From Actinocorallia herbida (GTDB taxonomy: Bacteria; Actinomycetota; Actinomycetes; Streptosporangiales; Streptosporangiaceae), in NCBI RefSeq assembly GCF_003751225.1, contig NZ_RJKE01000001.1, forward strand, positions 3,906,001-3,970,000: a stretch of DNA of 64,000 nucleotides, given 5' to 3'. The notes below the pieces were generated by a model. That model did no database searches, was not told the origin of the DNA, and saw only the letters and a program-made list of their open reading frames with translations. A program made the position numbers and the translations under genes. This document shows positions 4,397 to 64,000 of the stretch, piece by piece; position 1 is the stretch's first letter, and the number at the start of each line of letters is the position of its first letter.

Positions 4397-5374
4397 TCAG
4401 TCGGATTCGGTGACCTTCAGGGTGATGGGGAAATGGTCGGAGAACCCGGACTCGTTGACCTTTTTCCCCATGCCGCCGAAAGGGACGGGGGCGGGGTAGG
4501 CGCCGGTGCTGAAGGTGCCGGGGAAACGGAGGATGCGCACGGATTCGGGGTGGACCCGGAGCGGGGATCGGGGACGGGCCATGGGGGCGTTGACGATGAA
4601 CTGGTCGAGCAGGTTCGGTTCGTTGTTGAAGTAGAAAGTGCCGTCGGGGACGCCCATCTGAGGCCACATGAGGTTCCACAGGCGGGGCGTGTCGGCTTCG
4701 AGGACCCGGCGCCGCTGGCGGGTGCTGAGGGCGTGCACGACCAGCGAGGTGTCGAACGGCTCGTCGTTGAAGTCGCCCATCGCGAGTACCGGCGTGTCGG
4801 GGCCGTGCTCCTCCAGGGTGCGCTGGTGGAAGTAGGACAGGGTCTCGCCGGCGATGTGCCGGTAGCCCGCGGACTCGGCCGCGCCGCCGCTGCGTGAGGG
4901 CCAGTGGTTGCCGAACACCGCCCACGTGCGACCCCGCCTGGTCCGGAAGTTGACCTGCACGATCTCCCGGGTCGCGTTCCGGCGCATCACCACATGGAAG
5001 AACACCTGCCCGTCGGGCACCTCGAACAGGGCCGGATCGTAGAGGAACGCGACGTCGATGCCCCGCGCGTCACCGGTGTCGGCGTGCACGATCGCGTACC
5101 GGCGCCCCGGCAGCCGGTGGTGCACCGCCGCGGCCAGCCGCTCCAGGACGAACAGGTTCTCGACCTCGCACACCCCGAGCAGATCCGGTCCGGCGCCGTC
5201 CTTCATCTGCGCGATGACCGACGCCAACCGCTCGATCTTCAGATCGCGCAATCGCGGCGTCCACCCCGTGATGTCATCCTTGATGACCCGCGCCAGCCGT
5301 TCCGACCGGCGCGGCGAATTCTCCTCGTCAAAAAGGTTCTCGACATTCCACCAGGCCACGTCATAGTCGTCCAC
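4397..5374 (-). CDS. Endonuclease/exonuclease/phosphatase (EEP) family hydrolase
   Basis: A 325-residue protein with the ordered EEP motifs: WNVENLFDEE at the N-terminus, VCEVEN (metal-binding Glu), GNHWPSRSGG, MGDFNDEPFD (Asp/Asn pair) and a C-terminal SDHFPI (catalytic His). These build a divalent-metal phosphoesterase site like that of DNase I or exonuclease III relatives. The open frame extends upstream to 5488, but the GTG at 5374 has GAGGAG seven bases before it and begins exactly at the fold, so I choose it. No signal peptide is seen with that start, so it is probably cytoplasmic. The substrate (nucleic acid, lipid or sugar phosphate) cannot be told from sequence. Confidence 0.9.
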   Translation of the reverse strand: MDDYDVAWWNVENLFDEENSPRRSERLARVIKDDITGWTPRLRDLKIERLASVIAQMKDGAGPDLLGVCEVENLFVLERLAAAVHHRLPGRRYAIVHADTGDARGIDVAFLYDPALFEVPDGQVFFHVVMRRNATREIVQVNFRTRRGRTWAVFGNHWPSRSGGAAESAGYRHIAGETLSYFHQRTLEEHGPDTPVLAMGDFNDEPFDTSLVVHALSTRQRRRVLEADTPRLWNLMWPQMGVPDGTFYFNNEPNLLDQFIVNAPMARPRSPLRVHPESVRILRFPGTFSTGAYPAPVPFGGMGKKVNESGFSDHFPITLKVTESD

Positions 5375-5503: not shown

Positions 5504-6247
5504 TCAGACGCCCAGGTCCAGGGTGACGAGGTCGGACCAGGCGGCGAGACCGCCCGGATGGCGTGCGACCAGGTGGAATTCCAGGGTGTCCGTGCCGAAT
5601 CCGGTGCCGTCCCAGGTGTAGGTGCCGTCGGGGCCGGTGTAGAGGTAGCCGTAGCCCGACCATTCGTCCTCGGAGTCGGCAGGACGGGCGTAGACCGTGA
5701 CGGAGCCCGACGGGTCGGGCTGCCAGGTCCCGCAGGTCTTGACCTCGACGAGACCGGTCAGGGTCGGCGGCGTGGTGGAGGTCGCGGAGTCGGCGCTGAC
5801 CGAGACGCGAAGATCGCTCGCCGTGCCGGACGTCGGCGGGACGAAGCCGGGCTGGAGGACGACGGTCTCGGAGACGGCATGCGGGTTCGCGCCGCCGTAG
5901 TAGGCGATGACGTAGAACTCGGTGGCGCGCTGGATCGGCGCCGGCCACGAGAAGGTGCCGACGTCGGCCGTCGCCGGCACGGCGTCGTAGGCGATCCAAG
6001 GGGCGTCGGGCAGGTCGGTGGGACGGCCGAACACGTTGACCATGACCTGGGGCGCCGCGCCGATCGTGCCCCAGACGCCGTCGCGTTGGAGTTCGACCAG
6101 GCCGGTCAGGGTCGGCGGGCCGGAACAGCCCGCGGGAACCGCGGTGAGGGACGCCCGCATCCCGGTGATCGCGGCCGAGGCCGGCACCGGGAGGAGCAGG
6201 ACGACGGCCGCCGCGAGGGCGATGACGAAAGCCGTGAACGCGCGCAT
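5504..6247 (-). CDS. Small secreted protein with two Ig-like repeats
   Basis: A 247-residue protein starting MRAFTAFVIALAAAVVLLL and ending its signal peptide near PASA-A. The mature part has two similar halves, each containing a TLTGLVE(L/V) strand, a GTW or GVW turn and a long region rich in Tyr, Pro and Gly, which suggests two tandem beta-sandwich domains. No catalytic motif is evident. I prefer the ATG at 6247 (GGCGG five bases upstream) to the in-frame GTG at 6277. It is transcribed away from the PAS kinase gene, sharing a roughly 210-base divergent promoter region. The role is unknown; extracellular structural or adhesive function is only inference. Confidence 0.75.
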   Translation of the reverse strand: MRAFTAFVIALAAAVVLLLPVPASAAITGMRASLTAVPAGCSGPPTLTGLVELQRDGVWGTIGAAPQVMVNVFGRPTDLPDAPWIAYDAVPATADVGTFSWPAPIQRATEFYVIAYYGGANPHAVSETVVLQPGFVPPTSGTASDLRVSVSADSATSTTPPTLTGLVEVKTCGTWQPDPSGSVTVYARPADSEDEWSGYGYLYTGPDGTYTWDGTGFGTDTLEFHLVARHPGGLAAWSDLVTLDLGV

Positions 6248-6461
6248 GTAGTCCGCCTTGCCGTAGATCGGAAACACCTCACCGAGATCTACAGCGGTGG
6301 TCCGGTCCCGCCTGTGGAAAATGACGCACTCTCCCGAAATGGCCGGGTCCGGTGTGGCGCACAGGGCGTGAGATCTACCTGGTCTTCGCCCTGGGGTGGG
6401 GGGGATGTGCCGGAAAGGGCGCTTGTATTGACTTGGGGTGTGAGGGCCGTGGGAGGGCGGT

Positions 6462-57250: not shown

Positions 57251-58315
57251 TCAGGGAGCGGGGGCGGTGCCCTGGTGGGCGTGGGTGAGGAGGTCGGTGA
57301 GGTCGGGGGCGGTCGGGGGGCGGGGGTTGGCGTAGGGGGTGGCCAGGACTTGGGACACGATCTCCGGGATCGCGGACTCTCGGAGGCCGAGGGAGGCCAG
57401 GGAGGTGGGGGCACCGAGGGCGCGCGCCAGATCCCAGAGTGCGGTGGCCGGGTCGGGGGAGCCCAGGACTCGGGACAGGGCGGCGGTCGCATCCGGGGCG
57501 GCCGCCGCGTTGTAGGCGAGGACGTGGGGGAGGACGACGGTGTGGACCTCCGCGTGAGGGAGGTCGAAGGTGCCGCCCAGGACATGGCAGAGCTTGTGGT
57601 GGAGGGACATGGTCGTGGCGCCCAGGACCGCCCCGCACAGCCAGGCGCCGTAGAGGGCGCGGGAGCGGGCGGGCGGGTCGGCCGGGGCCTCGACGAGCCG
57701 GGGGAGCGACTCGATCAGGGCGCGGGCCCCGGCTTCGGCCATGAGGGCGACGATGGGGGAGAGATCGGGGGCGTAGAGGGCCTCCGCGGCGTGGGCCAGG
57801 GCGTTGAAGCCGCTGGTGACCGAGAGGGCGGGCGGAAGGGTCAGGGTGAGGTCGGGGTCGTAGACGACCGCGCGGGGGAGGACCGCGGGATCGCGGCCGG
57901 TGCGCTTGACGCCGTCCTCGGTGAGGCCCCAGACGGGGGTCATCTCCGAGCCCGCGTAGGTGGTGGGGACGGCGATGACGGGGAGGCCGTCGCGCAGGGC
58001 GAGGGCCTTGGCGAGGCCGATGGCCGAGCCGCCGCCGACCGCGACGCAGCCGTCCGCGCCGAGCCGGGCCGCCGCCTCGCGGGCTGCGGCGACGATCGGC
58101 GTGGGGACGTGCATCCGGGCTCCGGCGAACACCCCGGCGGCGCGCTCACCGAGCAGGTCCGCGACGCGCAGGGCGAGCTTCTCGTGTCCCGGCGTGGACA
58201 CCACGAGGGCGCGGGAGAGCCCGAGCCGTCGCGCCTCGTCCGCGACGGCGGGCAGCCGCCCGGCGCCGAAGACGACGCGCATCGGCTGCGCCTCGTAGAC
58301 GAACTCATCCCGCAT
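57251..58315 (-). CDS. Maleylacetate reductase
   Basis: A 354-residue iron-type alcohol dehydrogenase family enzyme matching maleylacetate reductases: RVVFGAGRL near the start, the cofactor region VGGGSAIGLAKALAL, PTTYAGSEMTPVWG, SGFNALAHAAEALYAP and SLHHKLCHVLGGTFDLPHAE. It reduces maleylacetate to 3-oxoadipate with NAD(P)H. Its start overlaps the dioxygenase gene by 11 bases. This step follows hydroxyquinol ring cleavage, so the pair is diagnostic for the hydroxyquinol pathway. Confidence 0.93.
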   Translation of the reverse strand: MRDEFVYEAQPMRVVFGAGRLPAVADEARRLGLSRALVVSTPGHEKLALRVADLLGERAAGVFAGARMHVPTPIVAAAREAAARLGADGCVAVGGGSAIGLAKALALRDGLPVIAVPTTYAGSEMTPVWGLTEDGVKRTGRDPAVLPRAVVYDPDLTLTLPPALSVTSGFNALAHAAEALYAPDLSPIVALMAEAGARALIESLPRLVEAPADPPARSRALYGAWLCGAVLGATTMSLHHKLCHVLGGTFDLPHAEVHTVVLPHVLAYNAAAAPDATAALSRVLGSPDPATALWDLARALGAPTSLASLGLRESAIPEIVSQVLATPYANPRPPTAPDLTDLLTHAHQGTAPAP

Positions 58316-59174
58316 CGGCGGCCTCCGGTTCCACGACGACCTCGTAGACGGCCTCGCGGAAGGGGACGGCCAAGCCGTACCGCGCGGCCTCCCTCTCGTC
58401 GGCCACCTCCGCGAAGTCGACGACGAGGCTCTGCTTCACCGCGAAGACCGCGTCGGACTCGATGTAGGGGCTGTCCGCCACGAAAAGGTGGGTGGTGAGC
58501 GCCTTGTGGCCTTCGGCGGCCACGATCAGGTGGACGTGGGCGGGCCGGTACGGGTGCCGCCGCGTCGCCTTGAGCAGCCCGCCGACCGGCCCGTCGGTGG
58601 GGATCGGGTAGTGGCTCGGCACGACCGTGCGGAACCACAGCCGCCCGTCCTCCCCGGTGCGGAAGAGGCCGCGCCCGTTGCCGAGCGGCTGCACGTCGGG
58701 CTGCTGGACGTCGTAGAAGCCGTCCTCGTCGCACTGCCAGACGTCGACCGACGCGCCGGGCAGCGGCCTCCCGTCGGCGGAGACGACCCGCAGGGACACC
58801 ACGCACGGGGTGCCCCGCCCGAGCAGGTCGACGGACTCGCCCTCCTCCCGGGGCGGTGACTCGACGACGTGGAAGGGCCCGAGCACGGTGCTCTCGGTGC
58901 CCGTCTCCTGGCCGTTCAGGGTCTCCACCAGCATCGAGACGCCCAGGACGTCGGAGAGCAGGATGAACTCCTGCCGCTTGTCGTCGCACTTCTGACCGAC
59001 CTCGGTGAGGAAGCCGATCGCGCGCTCCCACTCGGGGACCGTCACGCGGTGCTCGCGGACGTAGGCGTGCAGATGCCCGACCAGGCCCTCCAGCAGCTCC
59101 CTGAGCCGCGGATCGGGCGTCTCGGCGAAGCTCGCGGCGACGGCCGCGGTCGCGGACTCCTCGGTCAGATCCAT
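58305..59174 (-). CDS. Hydroxyquinol 1,2-dioxygenase (intradiol)
   Basis: A 289-residue intradiol dioxygenase. An N-terminal dimerisation region (LTEVGQKCDDKRQEFILLSD) is typical of catechol/hydroxyquinol enzymes. Fe(III) ligands are Tyr154, Tyr189, His213 and His215 (CDEDGFYDVQ, SHYPIPTDGP, RPAHVHL). It cleaves 1,2,4-trihydroxybenzene to maleylacetate. The adjacent reductase supports hydroxyquinol over catechol. It overlaps the neighbouring genes at both ends. Confidence 0.93.
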   Translation of the reverse strand: MDLTEESATAAVAASFAETPDPRLRELLEGLVGHLHAYVREHRVTVPEWERAIGFLTEVGQKCDDKRQEFILLSDVLGVSMLVETLNGQETGTESTVLGPFHVVESPPREEGESVDLLGRGTPCVVSLRVVSADGRPLPGASVDVWQCDEDGFYDVQQPDVQPLGNGRGLFRTGEDGRLWFRTVVPSHYPIPTDGPVGGLLKATRRHPYRPAHVHLIVAAEGHKALTTHLFVADSPYIESDAVFAVKQSLVVDFAEVADEREAARYGLAVPFREAVYEVVVEPEAADAG

Positions 59175-60052
59175 GATCCCGCCTCGGCCTTCTCACGCGG
59201 CGCCTCGGGTGCGGCGACGCACTCGTTGCGCATCCTTCCGATGCCGTCCACCCAGGATTCCACCACGTCGCCGGGCGCGAGGAAACGCTGCGGCGAGCGC
59301 GCCGCGCCCACGCCCGAAGGGGTGCCGGTGAAGATGAGGTCGCCGGGCAGCAGCGGCACCGTCTGGGAGAGCCGGGCGACCAGCTCCGGCACCGGGAACA
59401 CCAGGTCGGCGGTGCTGCCCTGCTGCACGACGTCGCCGTTGACCGAGCAGCCCAGCGCGAGCCGGTCGGGGTCGGGCAGCGCGTCGGGCGTGATCAGCCA
59501 CGGGCCGAGCGGGCCGAAGGTCGGGAAGGACTTCGCGAGGCTGAACTGGGGCGACGCGCCCGCCGTCTGCATCCTGCGCTGCGAGATGTCCTGGCCGATG
59601 GTCAGGCCCGCGACGTGGTCCCAGCCGCGCTCGGCCGACACGCGGTGGGCGGCGCGGCCGATGACGACGACGACCTCGACCTCCCAGTCGCACGGCCCGT
59701 CCACCAGCTCGATCGCGCCGAACGCGCCGGTGAGGCACGACCGGTACTTGGTGAAGACGCTCGGGGCCTCCGGCAGCGGCGCCCCGATCTCCGCGGCGTG
59801 GTCGACGTAGTTCATGCCGACCGCGAAGACCTGCCGGGGGTCGGTCAGCGGCGGGCGGAGCAGGGAACGGTCCAACTCCCGGCCTCCGCGCAGTGCTCTG
59901 CCCTCGGCCCAGGCGCGGAACGCGGTCCAGTCCTCCAGGAGCGATCTCGGGTCGGGACCGAACCTGCCGTCCGACCACTCCGCGACGTCGTGGACCCGGA
60001 GGTCCTCCCCGACGACGGTCGCCCTGCCGTCCACGTTGGCGATGCGCAACAA
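59165..60052 (-). CDS. Fumarylacetoacetate-hydrolase family protein
   Basis: A 295-residue FAH-fold protein: FAVGMNYVDHAAEIG, the metal Glu/Asp set in DWEVEVVVVIG and GQDISQRRMQ, and IFTGTPSGVG. Members hydrolyse or decarboxylate beta-diketones and 2-oxo acids using Mg2+. It is not needed for hydroxyquinol breakdown as such, so it may process a side product or an earlier intermediate. TTG 60052 with GAGAGG upstream is the likely start. Confidence 0.9.
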   Translation of the reverse strand: MLRIANVDGRATVVGEDLRVHDVAEWSDGRFGPDPRSLLEDWTAFRAWAEGRALRGGRELDRSLLRPPLTDPRQVFAVGMNYVDHAAEIGAPLPEAPSVFTKYRSCLTGAFGAIELVDGPCDWEVEVVVVIGRAAHRVSAERGWDHVAGLTIGQDISQRRMQTAGASPQFSLAKSFPTFGPLGPWLITPDALPDPDRLALGCSVNGDVVQQGSTADLVFPVPELVARLSQTVPLLPGDLIFTGTPSGVGAARSPQRFLAPGDVVESWVDGIGRMRNECVAAPEAPREKAEAGSWI

Positions 60053-60142
60053 CCCTCAAACCTCTCAAGTCAGTCTCATGGCCGCGCGGACCCTCCCCGC
60101 GCGTCCCTTGCCCCGGCCCGCCGCGCGACGCGGCGCGCGCCG

Positions 60143-60946
60143 CTAGTGCGGGTAGCCGGTGTAACCGGGCGAGCAGCCGGGCGTCGGCGCGGTCCGGCCG
60201 CCGTCGACGGGCAGCAGCACGCCGCTGACGTAGCTCGCCGCCGGCGAGGCCAGGTAGAGCACCGCCGAGGCGTACTCCTCCGGCTCGGCGACCGGCCGCA
60301 GCGGGGTCGCCCGGCCGAGTTCCGCCACCACCGACGGGTTCAGCGGCATAGCCGACGAGCCCGCCCGTGACACCCCGTTGACCCGGATGCCTTCGCCCGC
60401 GAGCTGGGCCGCGAGCATGTGCACCAGGACGTGCACGCCGCCCTTGGAGGCGGAGTAGCTGACCACGTTCGGGTTGCCGAAGGTGCCGTCGATCGAGCCG
60501 GCGTGGACCATCGAGGCGTTCTCGGCGCGGCGCAGGTGCGGCAGGAAGGCGCGGGAGGCCGCGTAGACGCCCGTGAGGTTGATCCGGACCGTCTCGTCGA
60601 ACTGCTCGATGGAGACGTCGGGGAACCTGCCGAAGTCGTTGGCGAAGTGGTGGGTGACCAGGGTGTTCACGGACTCCCAGGGCAGCTCGGCCGCGATCCG
60701 CTCGACGTCGTGCGGGTCGCGCGGGTCGTGCGTGAAGACGATCGGGTCGCCGCCCGCCGCGCGGACGGCCGCCTCGGCGGCCTCGGCCGACTCCTTGGTG
60801 GCCTGCGCGATGGCGACCTCCGCGCCGCACTGGGCGAACGCGACGGCCGAGGCGGTGACGAGGTCCTCGGGGCCGTTGATCCCGATGCCGGTGCCGAGCA
60901 GCACGACCTTGGTGCCGGTGAAGTCGAACGCCTGCTTGATGTCCAT
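60143..60946 (-). CDS. Short-chain dehydrogenase/reductase
   Basis: A 267-residue SDR. The cofactor loop is atypical (LLGTGIGINGPED in place of TGxxxGIG), while catalytic Ser in HAGSIDG, YSASKGG and the C-terminal SGVLLPVDGG are conserved. It could reduce a carbonyl or dehydrogenate an alcohol/diol in the aromatic pathway. It is co-oriented with its neighbours, with short gaps. Confidence 0.88.
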   Translation of the reverse strand: MDIKQAFDFTGTKVVLLGTGIGINGPEDLVTASAVAFAQCGAEVAIAQATKESAEAAEAAVRAAGGDPIVFTHDPRDPHDVERIAAELPWESVNTLVTHHFANDFGRFPDVSIEQFDETVRINLTGVYAASRAFLPHLRRAENASMVHAGSIDGTFGNPNVVSYSASKGGVHVLVHMLAAQLAGEGIRVNGVSRAGSSAMPLNPSVVAELGRATPLRPVAEPEEYASAVLYLASPAASYVSGVLLPVDGGRTAPTPGCSPGYTGYPH

Positions 60947-60980
60947 CTGTTCCTTCTTCTCGGGTTTCGGGAGGGCGCGC

Positions 60981-62189
60981 TCAGGCGGAGCGGCGCAGGG
61001 CGCCTTCGGGGTCCTGGTAGCGCCAGAGCCAGTCCTGGACGCTGGAGTCGATCGCGCCTTCGGCCACCGCCTTGTCGCGGGCGCGCTGCGCCTCGCCGTC
61101 GGGCAGGTGGAAGGTCGTCGCGTTGGCCGCGGACAGCGACTGCGCCCGGTTGGCGCGCTCCAGGCGCAGCGCCTCGAACGCGGCGAACGCCTCGGCCGGG
61201 TCGTCCAGCGCGGCGAACGCGGCGCCGAGCGCCTGGCCGTCCTCGATCGCCTGCGCCGCGCCCTGGCCCAGGTAGGGCAGCATCGGGTGGCAGCCGTCGC
61301 CGAGGAGCGCGACGCGTCCCGCGGTCCAGCTCTCCAGCGCGGGCTGAACGTAGATGTCGTACCGGATCACGCCGTTGCCCTCGGTGATGAGGCGGCGCAG
61401 CGGCTCGTGCCAGCCCTCCAGGTGGGCGAGGGTCTCGGCCACGCCGACCGGGCCGGACGTGGCGCCGGTGGACAGCGCCGGGGCCTCGATGCAGCAGGTG
61501 ACGTTGATGACCTTGCCGCGCCGGAACGGGCAGTGCACCACGTGCGCGCCGGGGCCGAGCCACGACTCGAACCCGTTGCGCTCGACGAACTCGGCGAGCG
61601 CCCGGTCGGCCAGCAGCCGCTCGGCGGGCACCTGGGTGCGGAACCCGCTGTGCCCGGTGTAGGCCGGGTCCTCCGCGCCGAACAGCTCACGCCGGACGAC
61701 GGAGCGGATGCCGTCGGCGCCGATGGTGAAGTCGGGCGTGAAGACCGTGCCGTCCGCGGTGCCGACCCGGCCGGTCGCGGCGTCCACCCCGGCGACGCGC
61801 CGGCCGGTGAGGACGCGGACGGGCCTGCCCGGAAGGGCGGGGTCCTGGGCCGCGTCCAGGAGGGCGCGCTGGAGGTCGCCGCGGTGGGCGAACCAGAAGG
61901 GGTGGCCGAACGCGTCGACCGTCGTGCCCAGCGGGGACCTGAACAGTTCCGCGCCGTCCTGCCAGCGGCGGCGGGTGGTCCAGGTCGGCACCGCGACGTC
62001 GGGTGCCAGCCGGTCGGCCAGGCCCAGCGCGGACAGCGCGCCGACCGCGTTGGGGCCGAGGCCGATGCCCGCGCCCACCTCGCTGATCTGGCGGGACTGC
62101 TCCAGCACGGTGACCTCGTGGCCCGCCCGGCGCAGTGCGACGGCGGCGGTGAGCCCGCCGATGCCCGCGCCGATGACAACCGCATACAT
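60981..62189 (-). CDS. FAD-dependent aromatic monooxygenase (salicylate-hydroxylase-like)
   Basis: A 402-residue group A flavoprotein monooxygenase: GAGIGGLTAAVAL, the DG motif in IGADGIRSVV and the GD motif in VALLGDGCHPMLPYLGQG. Relatives decarboxylate-hydroxylate salicylate, 6-hydroxynicotinate or dihydroxybenzoates using NAD(P)H and O2. In this operon it most likely turns a dihydroxybenzoate into hydroxyquinol. Its start lies 9 bases from the preceding gene's end. Confidence 0.92.
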   Translation of the reverse strand: MYAVVIGAGIGGLTAAVALRRAGHEVTVLEQSRQISEVGAGIGLGPNAVGALSALGLADRLAPDVAVPTWTTRRRWQDGAELFRSPLGTTVDAFGHPFWFAHRGDLQRALLDAAQDPALPGRPVRVLTGRRVAGVDAATGRVGTADGTVFTPDFTIGADGIRSVVRRELFGAEDPAYTGHSGFRTQVPAERLLADRALAEFVERNGFESWLGPGAHVVHCPFRRGKVINVTCCIEAPALSTGATSGPVGVAETLAHLEGWHEPLRRLITEGNGVIRYDIYVQPALESWTAGRVALLGDGCHPMLPYLGQGAAQAIEDGQALGAAFAALDDPAEAFAAFEALRLERANRAQSLSAANATTFHLPDGEAQRARDKAVAEGAIDSSVQDWLWRYQDPEGALRRSA

Positions 62190-62198
62190 GGGAGACTC

Positions 62199-63182
62199 CT
62201 AGATGATCGAGGTGTGGCCGCTGGGCTCGGCGTCCACCGGGCTGAACAGGGACGCCGCCGAGGGCGCTCCGGTGGTGATCCGCTGCTCGCGCGCATAGCG
62301 GACGATCAGTTCCATCGCGCGGACGTTGCCGTCGGTCAGGCCGTACTGCCACGGGTCCTTGCCGAGCAGCGCGTCCTGCTCGCGCCAGGCGTCCTGGACG
62401 AAGGCGAACGGCAGGGTCCGGGGGTTGCGCAGCCGCTCCATCGCCTGCCGCCGCGCGGTGGTGAACGCGGCCAGGAGGCTGTTCGGCACCCATGGGTGCC
62501 GGTCGACGACCTCCTGGCGGATGGTCACGACGTGCATCACGGGGAAGACGCCGGTCTTGGCGTAGTACCGCTTCTCGACGTCGGCGTAGTCGGGGAACAG
62601 GCGGGCGACCGCCGGGTCTCCGGCGAGGAACGACGGCGGGTGGTAGGCCGACACCGTCGCGGCGATCCCGCCCGAGGTGAGCAGGTCGTCGATGCGGTGG
62701 CGGGCCGCGCTGTCGGTGGGGGCGAGCGGGGCCTGCTGGCCGTCGGCGAGCCTGCCGAAACCACCGAAGACATCGACCCAGTCGACCTTGTCGAGGTCGA
62801 GGCCGTGCTCGTCCTGGAGGATGCCGCGGATCCACACCGCCGCGGCGGGCTCGAACCCGCCGATGCCGACCGCCCTCCCGGTGAGGTCGGCGACGGACTC
62901 GATGCCGCTGCCGGTGTGCACGAAGATCGAGCCGTGCCGGAACCTGCGGTGCGGGAAGACCGGGATCGCCGTCAGCGGCTCGCCCTGCTCCTTGGCGCGC
63001 AGGTACTGGACGATGTTGAACTCCGAGACGTCGACCTCGTTGCGGCGGTCGAGCCGGAAGATGCGCTCCTTGTCGTCCGACAGGGGCACGAGGTCGATGC
63101 CGTCGGGCCGGACCGTGCCGTCCAGCAGCGCGCGGGTGATCTCGTAGTCGCCGCAGGCGAGCGAGAGGGTGAGCCGGCTCAT
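62199..63182 (-). CDS. 4,5-dihydroxyphthalate-decarboxylase-like / periplasmic-binding-fold protein
   Basis: A 327-residue protein with the type II periplasmic-binding fold seen in Pht5-type 4,5-dihydroxyphthalate decarboxylases (LACGDYEITRALLDG, RHGSIFVHTGSGI, VGIGGFEPAAAVWIRGIL). It has no signal peptide, so it is cytoplasmic rather than an ABC binding protein, although a binding role for the adjacent importer cannot be excluded. It overlaps the ATPase gene by four bases. Confidence 0.85.
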   Translation of the reverse strand: MSRLTLSLACGDYEITRALLDGTVRPDGIDLVPLSDDKERIFRLDRRNEVDVSEFNIVQYLRAKEQGEPLTAIPVFPHRRFRHGSIFVHTGSGIESVADLTGRAVGIGGFEPAAAVWIRGILQDEHGLDLDKVDWVDVFGGFGRLADGQQAPLAPTDSAARHRIDDLLTSGGIAATVSAYHPPSFLAGDPAVARLFPDYADVEKRYYAKTGVFPVMHVVTIRQEVVDRHPWVPNSLLAAFTTARRQAMERLRNPRTLPFAFVQDAWREQDALLGKDPWQYGLTDGNVRAMELIVRYAREQRITTGAPSAASLFSPVDAEPSGHTSII

Positions 63183-63955
63183 CGGGCGGCCTCCTGGTGG
63201 TGGCCGAGCGCGCTGAAGACCGAGGCGCGCAGGTCGGCGAAGGTCTCGGTGGCCTTGGTCGCGATCTGCTCGCGCGGCCGCGGCAGGTCGACCGGCATGA
63301 CCTCGCGGATGGTGGTGGGCGTGCGGGTGAGGACGACGATCCGGCCGCCGAGGTAGATGGCCTCATCGATGTCGTGGGTGACGAAACCGATCGTCATCTT
63401 CCGCTCGGACCACAGCCGCTGGGTGAGGTCCTCCAGCTCGACGCGCGTCTGCGCGTCGACCGAGGCGAACGGCTCGTCCATCAGCAGCAGCCGGGGCCGG
63501 TAGGCGAGCGCGCGGGCGATGGCCACGCGCTGCTGCATGCCGCCGGACAGCTGCCACGGCTTCTTGTCCAGGTGGGCGCTCAGCCCGACCGACGCCAGCG
63601 CCTCCGCGGTGCGCTCGGCCGCCTCCTTCTTGGAGATCGGCTTGTAGCGCAGCGGCAGCCTGACGTTCTCCGCGACGCTCAGCCACGGCAGCAGCGAGCG
63701 GCTGTAGTCCTGGAACACGATGCCGAGCGTGTCGGGCGGGCCGGTGACGTCCTCGCCCGCGACCCGGACGGTGCCGGAGTCGAAGGGCATGAGGCCGCCC
63801 AGGCAGCGCAGCATCGTGGTCTTGCCGCAGCCCGACGGGCCCACGATGGAGACGAGTTCGCCCTCGAAGACCTCGAGAGTGATGTCCGCGAGGACGAGTT
63901 CACTCCCGTAGCTCTTGCGCAGGCCGTCGACCTGGAGGATCGCCTGCTCAGTCAT
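63179..63955 (-). CDS. ABC transporter ATPase (nitrate/sulfonate/taurine type)
   Basis: A 258-residue ATPase: Walker A GPSGCGKTTM, Q-loop FQDYSRSLLPW, signature LSGGMQQR, Walker B LLMDEPFASVD and H-loop VTHDIDEAIYLG. This group powers import of aromatic acids, taurine, sulfonates or nitrate. It overlaps both the permease end and the next gene, so it is tightly coupled. It predicts an aromatic-acid importer for the pathway downstream. Confidence 0.93.
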   Translation of the reverse strand: MTEQAILQVDGLRKSYGSELVLADITLEVFEGELVSIVGPSGCGKTTMLRCLGGLMPFDSGTVRVAGEDVTGPPDTLGIVFQDYSRSLLPWLSVAENVRLPLRYKPISKKEAAERTAEALASVGLSAHLDKKPWQLSGGMQQRVAIARALAYRPRLLLMDEPFASVDAQTRVELEDLTQRLWSERKMTIGFVTHDIDEAIYLGGRIVVLTRTPTTIREVMPVDLPRPREQIATKATETFADLRASVFSALGHHQEAAR

Positions 63956-64000
63956 TGACGTACTCTCCGAACTTCCGGTCCAGCAGGCGGCCGCCGAAGG
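63948..64000 (-). CDS. ABC permease C-terminus, cut by the window edge
   Basis: The last 16-17 codons of a minus-strand gene, ending with LLDRKFGEYVND and TGA at 63948, overlapping the ATPase start by 8 bases. Identity as the permease is inferred from the ATPase next to it. Confidence 0.6.
   Translation of the reverse strand, partial: FGGRLLDRKFGEYVND

Follow-up and report, generated by a model that had tools for sequence, protein, structure and literature searches.

A predicted operon for uptake of an organic acid and its catabolism through hydroxyquinol in Actinocorallia herbida

Gene content, conservation and regulation of the cluster

A gene cluster containing eleven genes was analyzed at one end of a 64-kb stretch of the Actinocorallia herbida genome (the window: bases 3906001-3970000 of a 9.8-Mb single-contig genome, G000:C1). 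Ten genes on the minus strand form one tightly coupled operon, faced by a divergent regulator, and four of the eleven lie wholly or mostly outside the window (Table 1). Within the window, the genes are transcribed in the order ATP-binding cassette (ABC) importer ATPase, Pht5-like protein, flavin adenine dinucleotide (FAD) monooxygenase, short-chain dehydrogenase (SDR), FAH-family protein, dioxygenase and maleylacetate reductase. Overlaps are found at the junctions permease/ATPase (8 bp), ATPase/Pht5-like (4 bp), FAH/dioxygenase (10 bp) and dioxygenase/reductase (11 bp), and short gaps at Pht5-like/monooxygenase (9 bp), monooxygenase/SDR (34 bp) and SDR/FAH (90 bp). The family names were cross-checked by Pfam, NCBIfam and PDB searches, which all agree. 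An initial annotation had already described a coupled minus-strand operon here; each gene that it named is present where it was placed, with operonic spacing, and the sequence past 64 kb, to which it pointed for further members, supplied a second permease, a binding protein and a divergent GntR regulator.

It is fairly probable, judged from sequence relationships, that this is a regulated operon which takes up an organic acid and degrades it by way of hydroxyquinol to 3-oxoadipate. The imported substrate is probably an aromatic acid.

All 11 genes recur as a cluster in three other genomes, which excludes a chance grouping: Nonomuraea wenchangensis (L012), a second Nonomuraea-group genome (locus L068 of G516) and Arthrobacter sp. 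MA-N2 (L013). The gene set is thus known from four genomes in two actinobacterial families. The search for the same gene order in other genomes, a check that had been proposed for this locus, therefore recovered the set in three further genomes and the order in rearranged form. In the two Nonomuraea-type clusters, the regulator, the importer genes, the Pht5-like protein, the monooxygenase, the SDR and the FAH protein show 71-88% identity to those of the window, and the dioxygenase and reductase merely 47-51%, with the order of the latter two reversed. The Arthrobacter cluster (45-76% identity) is divided into one operon containing the importer, Pht5-like, reductase and dioxygenase genes and a divergent operon containing the monooxygenase, SDR and FAH genes.

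The cluster is rare among the samples searched. Further members were sought with the Pht5-like protein as query in genome samples that overlap. The class sample gave a cluster-type match in 1 of 394 genomes, that of the window itself (9 others matched at 34-41% identity), and the genus sample in one of three. Three of the 297 genomes of the family sample, its own included, matched at 83% identity or more (17 others at 39-43%), and the identical three were found among the 345 genomes of the order sample. The Arthrobacter family sample gave one in 295. Two of 19 loci from a GTDB scan hold the cluster within the available flanks, some of which are short. No description of this gene set was found in the open-access literature searched.

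The importer set is complete by Pfam and comprises an ATPase, two permeases and a binding protein, in agreement with the import step originally proposed. The best NCBIfam models of the ATPase are the taurine and nitrate ATP-binding subunits, with scores below their cut-offs. The binding protein carries a lipobox-like LTGC, LSAC or LAGC, read by eye among the cluster copies. By sequence, the operon thus has its own ABC importer of the binding-protein-dependent class, closest to SsuA/TauA. Each of the four clusters has a gene for a lipoprotein-like binding protein distinct from the Pht5-like protein, which argues against the option, raised in the initial annotation as a possible refutation, that the Pht5-like protein is itself the solute-binding subunit.

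The stretch ATTTTCGAAATCTCTTGAC is common to the three Streptosporangiaceae-type clusters and lies ahead of the binding-protein gene; in these clusters the palindrome TTTCGAAA sits near a -35-like TTGAC. The divergent operons of Arthrobacter possess near-identical promoter/operator stretches of about 63 bases that include the palindrome, TTGACATTTACGATTTAGC and CTAGGTCAC, and that align with a local score of 45; none of 200 shuffles scored above 15. This promoter pair looks as if it had been duplicated when the operon was split. A DNA pattern was built from both Arthrobacter promoters; its spacer to the -35 box is 4 bases long, one base longer than that of the window-type operator (3). In the 4.8-Mb Arthrobacter genome only the two source promoters were recovered at one mismatch or fewer, and five more places at two mismatches (two for the reversed control). 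The pattern has zero matches in the A. herbida genome, a count that is uninformative given the spacer mismatch (4 versus 3). In genomes G516 and G564, whose operators likewise have the 3-base spacer, the pattern matched 3 and 2 places with 1-2 mismatches, none of them at the cluster (control, 1 each), and genome G650 gave 7 places versus 2 for the control. The core WTTTCGAAAW has 0 occurrences within the 64-kb window and is found in 14 of 109 loci, among them the four clusters and also unrelated loci such as L016, L019, L075 and L078; thus, the palindrome alone is not specific. We infer that the GntR/FCD protein binds the palindrome, its putative operator.

Table 1. Features of the operon and of related loci (window positions unless a contig or locus is named)
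Feature	Position	Strand	Basis or remark
Maleylacetate reductase (iron-containing alcohol dehydrogenase family), 354 aa	57251..58315	-	PDB ranking, nine-row tree
Hydroxyquinol 1,2-dioxygenase (intradiol), 289 aa, predicted	58305..59174	-	PDB ranking, 55% identity to RW1 enzyme
FAH-family protein (acylpyruvate hydrolase/decarboxylase/tautomerase type), 295 aa	59165..60052	-	Pfam PF01557
Atypical SDR, 267 aa	60143..60946	-	Pfam adh_short
Group A FAD monooxygenase, 402 aa	60981..62189	-	PDB ranking, tree
Pht5/4,5-dihydroxyphthalate decarboxylase (DHPDC)-like protein, leaderless substrate-binding-protein fold, 327 aa	62199..63182	-	9jp7 sequence/fold match
ABC importer ATPase (taurine/nitrate/sulfonate type), 258 aa	63179..63955	-	Pfam ABC_tran
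ABC permease B, 3' end	63948..64000 (stop at 63948)	-	Continues to about G000:C1:3970709
Permease A	Upstream of permease B, beyond window	-	Neighbouring sequence (locus L009), Pfam
Lipoprotein-like binding protein, NMT1/SsuA type	C1:3971581-3972549, beyond window	-	L009, Pfam
GntR/FCD regulator, divergent	C1:3972772-3973458, beyond window	+	L009, Pfam
Protocatechuate 3,4-dioxygenase, thiolase and CoA-transferase-like genes	G000:C1 ~1868-1882 kb (L011 = 1872-1887 kb)		Adjoin gentisate-type cupin, FAH and 4bjy-like monooxygenase (414 bits)
Arthrobacter promoter/operator stretches	L013 ~5270-5347 and ~6212-6275		
Pht5-like homologue neighbourhoods	L015 4461-9097; L030 2746-14572		Homologue directly upstream of M24 peptidase; L030 with hydantoinase A/B

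Enzymes of the lower and upper halves

The top five PDB matches of the dioxygenase score 226-272 bits (three are named hydroxyquinol or 6-chlorohydroxyquinol 1,2-dioxygenase, one is PnpC and one carries a generic name), whereas catechol and chlorocatechol enzymes score at most 133. The Tyr of YDVQ, the Tyr of YPIP and the HxH motif, which we take to be the iron ligands, are kept in all seven aligned rows. In NCBIfam, the best model is catechol 1,2-dioxygenase, and the catechol/chlorocatechol models score 134-152 bits against cut-offs of 359-404. The reductase is matched by 3jzd (402 bits), 3hl0 (357), 3w5s (351) and 3iv7 (267), followed by a next match of 114; 3hl0 and 3w5s are named maleylacetate reductase, and 3jzd and 3iv7 carry generic names. 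The two enzymes thus rank with hydroxyquinol 1,2-dioxygenases and maleylacetate reductases, as had been claimed for them at the outset, and the predicted lower half (hydroxyquinol to maleylacetate to 3-oxoadipate) is well supported. The thiolase/CoA-transferase context elsewhere in the genome makes use of 3-oxoadipate by the host plausible; the CoA transferase and the gentisate-type cupin of that locus were called by eye.

Trees were built for nine dioxygenases (midpoint-rooted) and nine reductases. The window dioxygenase pairs with that of RHA1 pRHL3 (88/89), and the enzymes of RW1 and Rhizobium WL3 belong to the same group (100/99). The Arthrobacter dioxygenase/reductase pair joins the Rhodococcus opacus plasmid pair (100/99 and 100/100), and the Nonomuraea pair stands apart: its rows share the other half of the dioxygenase tree with Arthrobacter and R. 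opacus and fall on the window's side of the reductase tree with moderate support (85/86, 83/87). The ring-cleavage pairs of the four clusters would represent at least two, and probably three, lineages. The Pht5-like protein and the monooxygenase each form a single clade specific to the clusters, and the ring-cleavage pairs form several lineages; therefore, different hosts would have attached different hydroxyquinol pairs to one upper module. The strongest argument for the product of that module is that unlike hydroxyquinol pairs follow it, from which we infer that it yields hydroxyquinol itself.

The highest-scoring solved relatives of the window monooxygenase are a decarboxylative vanillate 1-hydroxylase (8x38, 219.6 bits) and a 4-hydroxybenzoate decarboxylase (8gsm, 216.9 bits), followed by 8r2t (203.9), tropone 2-monooxygenase (8rqh, 192.5) and 6-hydroxynicotinate 3-monooxygenase (161). 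The 4bjy group scores 141-147 bits and the solved salicylate hydroxylase 102. The same four solved enzymes lead for the Arthrobacter monooxygenase (253, 221, 215 and 214 bits). We take 8gsm to be CpMNX1, 8r2t to be TvMNX1 and 4bjy, named probable salicylate monooxygenase in the PDB, to be 3-hydroxybenzoate 6-hydroxylase. TvMNX1 is described as a 4-hydroxybenzoate 1-hydroxylase in PMC12915361. In an 18-row tree, the monooxygenases of the four clusters group together as a clade (99/98), separate from that of 4bjy. The monooxygenase likely performs an oxidative decarboxylation to hydroxyquinol. The salicylate-hydroxylase type originally assigned to it did not hold: the solved salicylate hydroxylase scores 102 bits versus 220 for the vanillate 1-hydroxylase, and TIGR03219 (salicylate 1-monooxygenase) reaches 130.7 bits against a cut-off of 446.35. 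Identity with 3-hydroxybenzoate 6-hydroxylase was also rejected, as the score lies below the curated cut-off, the clade is separate and a different A. herbida gene reaches 414 bits with 4bjy. On the R. opacus plasmid pRop44186_a (L080), a 40%-identical monooxygenase gene is followed directly by maleylacetate reductase and dioxygenase genes, and the same annotated run is present in PD630. Its neighbourhood of hydroxycinnamate-cleaving genes fits a hydroxybenzoate substrate of the monooxygenase.

The Pht5-like protein begins with MSRLTLSLACGDYEIT and has no leader by eye; its first modelled strand comprises residues 4-9. Only one PDB sequence matched at E ≤0.1, the 4,5-dihydroxyphthalate decarboxylase 9jp7 (E 4.4e-50). 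An AlphaFold model (from 23 sequences, mean pLDDT 86.3) matched 9jp7 with E 4.5e-30 and a template-modelling (TM) score of 0.84, and further fold matches include PqqT (E 9.1e-13), entries named 'enzyme of biosynthetic pathway', Thi5, TauA, SsuA, DszB and MqnD. The modelled protein has the binding-protein fold that is used by several enzymes. It keeps all 22 columns that are invariant among 27 homologues, including E54, R79, R82, R119 and H217, and these five residues are present in 9jp7 as well. From the fold and the invariant residues, decarboxylase-like chemistry is likely. Cys10, just past the first modelled strand, is kept in at least 90% of the 27 homologues, whereas both 9jp7 and the Massilia enzyme have Met at this position; MqnD and DszB presumably use a Cys at a similar place.

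The four cluster Pht5-like proteins sit on a long stem of their own (length 1.0, 100/100). In a tree containing 9jp7, the latter pairs with a Massilia WG5 protein (100/100), and a 100/99 split leaves the window protein on the other side; without 9jp7 the same split receives 100/100. The Massilia protein is 36% identical to that of the window and is encoded among phthalate-type Rieske and Gfo/Idh genes, with two Rieske genes adjoining. Residues I15, N56, V58, H78, E111, A113 and Y180 of the clusters correspond to R, S, S, S, Q, T and R in 9jp7 and nine rows across the split, a count that omits the long-branch row L042. On the window's side, I15 and H78 are common to all 13 other rows, N56 and A113 occur in some of these, and V58, E111 and Y180 in none of them. 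Since the split separates the window protein from 9jp7 and residues fixed there differ, 4,5-dihydroxyphthalate is doubtful as the substrate, and it is held with moderate confidence that the predicted substrate is another compound. The earlier proposal that an aromatic diacid is decarboxylated after import thus fares unevenly: the decarboxylase-like fold and invariant residues favour a decarboxylation, and the 100/99 split with the loss of two Arg and several Ser/Thr/Gln residues speaks against a phthalate-like diacid handled by a Pht5 orthologue.

Two loci outside the four clusters carry homologues together with Rieske genes. In locus L070 (genome G451, same family), two Pht5-like genes are accompanied by LigXa-type Rieske, ketopantoate hydroxymethyltransferase, EutA and RpiB family genes, an unusual set. 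In the Massilia sp. WG5 plasmid locus (L075, 693-18438), the start of the block of Rieske, Gfo/Idh and 4,5-dihydroxyphthalate decarboxylase genes appears again, under identical protein accessions, behind a second copy of an IS6 transposase gene.

In the SDR the Ser-Tyr-Lys residues are retained, and in all four clusters it carries GTGxGxxGPxD and THHFA motifs, which presumably replace the usual cofactor motifs. It had one PDB match at the limit of E 1e-25 (103 bits), and no match at 1e-45 was found in 344 other genomes of the class sample (seven best candidates scored per genome); plasmid relatives reach at most 36% identity among the 15 matches listed. The nearest solved relative of the FAH protein is 6v77, a 'putative HpcE' (298 bits), and all four cluster copies retain the NYxDHxxE and DWExE motifs. 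Among curated models, 2,4-didehydro-3-deoxy-L-rhamnonate hydrolase fits it best (175 bits, far from the cut-off of 500). In Arthrobacter, the SDR and FAH genes travel with the monooxygenase gene in the divergent operon.

Proposed pathway and alternatives

In the proposed pathway, the GntR/FCD regulator would bind the TTTCGAAA palindrome at the operon promoter, and the ABC importer would take up an organic acid from which the Pht5-like enzyme would then remove CO2 or a comparable group. The SDR and FAH proteins may trim or oxidize the substrate beforehand, possibly by oxidation of a hydroxyl group and hydrolysis of the resulting 2,4-diketo acid. The monooxygenase would hydroxylate a hydroxybenzoate (protocatechuate or 2,4-dihydroxybenzoate) at the carboxyl-bearing carbon with loss of CO2, yielding hydroxyquinol, which the dioxygenase and maleylacetate reductase would convert to maleylacetate and 3-oxoadipate. 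The chances are about even that the upper module is an undescribed pathway from an unrecognized imported acid to hydroxyquinol, coupled to at least two, probably three, ring-cleavage lineages, and that the Pht5-like protein represents a new specificity of a binding-protein-fold lyase and is not a phthalate enzyme.

Several observations weigh against the proposed pathway. A protocatechuate 3,4-dioxygenase gene is present elsewhere in the genome, so that protocatechuate need not pass through hydroxyquinol. The nearest non-cluster relatives of the Pht5-like protein (L030 and L015, 45-46% identical) adjoin M24 peptidase and MmgE/PrpD genes, and in L030 also hydantoinase genes, none of them genes of aromatic metabolism (the scan covered ten proteins of three loci). 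In the 18-row tree, the branching between the cluster monooxygenases and the 1-hydroxylases, tropone 2-monooxygenase and others is not resolved; among NCBIfam models, 3-hydroxybenzoate 6-monooxygenase comes first, though far short of its cut-off (216.2 bits against 459), and for the R. opacus relative tropone 2-monooxygenase ranks first (302 bits, with the 1-hydroxylases at 230-242), so this relative lends little to a 1-hydroxylation. The Arthrobacter FAH copy does not join the other cluster copies in the tree, and its orthology is not clear. Finally, separate recruitment is less certain for the dioxygenases of Nonomuraea and Arthrobacter, since both fall within the same half of the midpoint-rooted tree.

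The known activity of Pht5 offers an alternative in which 4,5-dihydroxyphthalate, imported or made elsewhere, is converted to protocatechuate and then to hydroxyquinol by decarboxylating 1-hydroxylation. The sole PDB sequence match and by far the best fold match is indeed a 4,5-dihydroxyphthalate decarboxylase, and the nearest solved monooxygenases act on para-hydroxybenzoates, a class to which protocatechuate belongs. In Pseudarthrobacter Sphe3, hydroxyquinol was seen during growth on 4-hydroxybenzoate and attributed to protocatechuate, with no hydroxyquinol dioxygenase gene found (PMC10815724), which is consistent with oxidative decarboxylation of protocatechuate. This alternative is nevertheless quite unlikely given the split from 9jp7 and the Massilia enzyme, the seven differing residues, the 36% identity, the distance to the nearest Rieske gene (all 29 genome matches lie more than 60 kb from the operon) and the protocatechuate 3,4-dioxygenase gene. 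If the monooxygenase instead made hydroxyquinol from 2,4-dihydroxybenzoate, an intermediate that a dihydroxyisophthalate-like acid, for instance, could supply, the need for a hydroxyquinol pair would be explained despite the protocatechuate 3,4-dioxygenase gene. This compound is both a salicylate and a para-hydroxybenzoate, and the monooxygenase family covers both types; the route is possible, though on the whole unlikely.

A route through a side chain, in which the SDR oxidizes a 4-hydroxy-2-oxo acid, the FAH protein splits the 2,4-diketo acid by hydrolysis into pyruvate and a hydroxybenzoate and the monooxygenase forms hydroxyquinol, would account for the conserved FAH motifs, the rhamnonate hydrolase model (175 versus 500 bits) and the shared operon of SDR, FAH and monooxygenase in Arthrobacter. 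In this route no step falls to the Pht5-like protein, the SDR is without a close solved relative and the tree does not settle the FAH orthology across clusters, so it appears about as improbable as the route through 4,5-dihydroxyphthalate. A non-catalytic role of the Pht5-like protein, as a binding protein or sensor in the cytosol tied to the importer, would suit its fold and the location of its gene directly after the ATPase gene in all four clusters, but the cluster already has another gene for a binding protein, the enzyme 9jp7 leads the next fold match by 17 orders of magnitude in E-value, and the 22 invariant residues include E54, R79, R82, R119 and H217; this is very unlikely. Cleavage of catechol or chlorocatechol by the dioxygenase is hardly credible: the enzyme belongs to the same superfamily and catechol 1,2-dioxygenase leads its NCBIfam matches, but the models score far under their cut-offs, solved catechol enzymes score at most 133 versus 226-272 bits, and a maleylacetate reductase gene adjoins.

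Hydroxyquinol is a known hub of aromatic breakdown, and the bacterial acids that feed this hub are incompletely listed. Since the compact and apparently inducible module has a single importer, a single regulator and a conserved operator, growth and binding screens offer a direct test for its substrate. The Pht5-like enzyme would define a new activity among the poorly charted enzymes that resemble solute-binding proteins.

Comparison with known systems

Compared with the characterized systems, the upper-pathway enzymes match no characterized subfamily, and the predicted upper half is a new combination. Riboflavin catabolism was considered and rejected, since the part of the source consulted (PMC12746152) contains no matching gene set. 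Rhizorhabdus (Sphingomonas) wittichii RW1 has a FAD monooxygenase, an iron-containing dehydrogenase and a hydroxyquinol 1,2-dioxygenase in one run (Swit_5061-5063), and its dioxygenase is 55% identical to that of the window. Its monooxygenase gene, in contrast, is 1.69 kb long versus 1.21 kb here, and the run is without ABC importer, Pht5-like or FAH genes. The hydroxyquinol genes of RW1 are presumably the dxn genes.

The R. opacus plasmids pRop44186_a and pRoPD630_1 also contain monooxygenase, maleylacetate reductase and dioxygenase genes in one run (40%, 45% and 48% identity, respectively, for pRop44186_a), but the upper genes are annotated as hydroxycinnamoyl-CoA hydratase/lyase, aldehyde dehydrogenase and AMP-binding protein, and no ABC importer, Pht5-like or SDR gene is annotated in the stretch. 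The gene run of these two plasmid loci (L080 and L084) resembles a hydroxycinnamate-to-hydroxyquinol pathway. A route from protocatechuate to hydroxyquinol is reported for Rhodococcus jostii RHA1 and Agrobacterium (attributed to Spence et al., 2020; a 2020 study of these bacteria is cited in PMC10815724). There, a monooxygenase and a decarboxylase reportedly supply hydroxyquinol dioxygenase and maleylacetate reductase, and the route is not known to include an importer or Pht5-like gene.

The Pht5/PhtD enzyme of Comamonas testosteroni KF-1 (9jp7) shares the fold and the family-invariant residues with the Pht5-like protein; unlike it, the window protein lies across the 100/99 split with other residues at positions fixed there, and its operon has no Rieske gene within 60 kb. 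The 1-hydroxylases 8gsm, 8x38 and 8r2t are the highest-scoring solved relatives of the monooxygenase, whereas the cluster monooxygenases form a separate clade.

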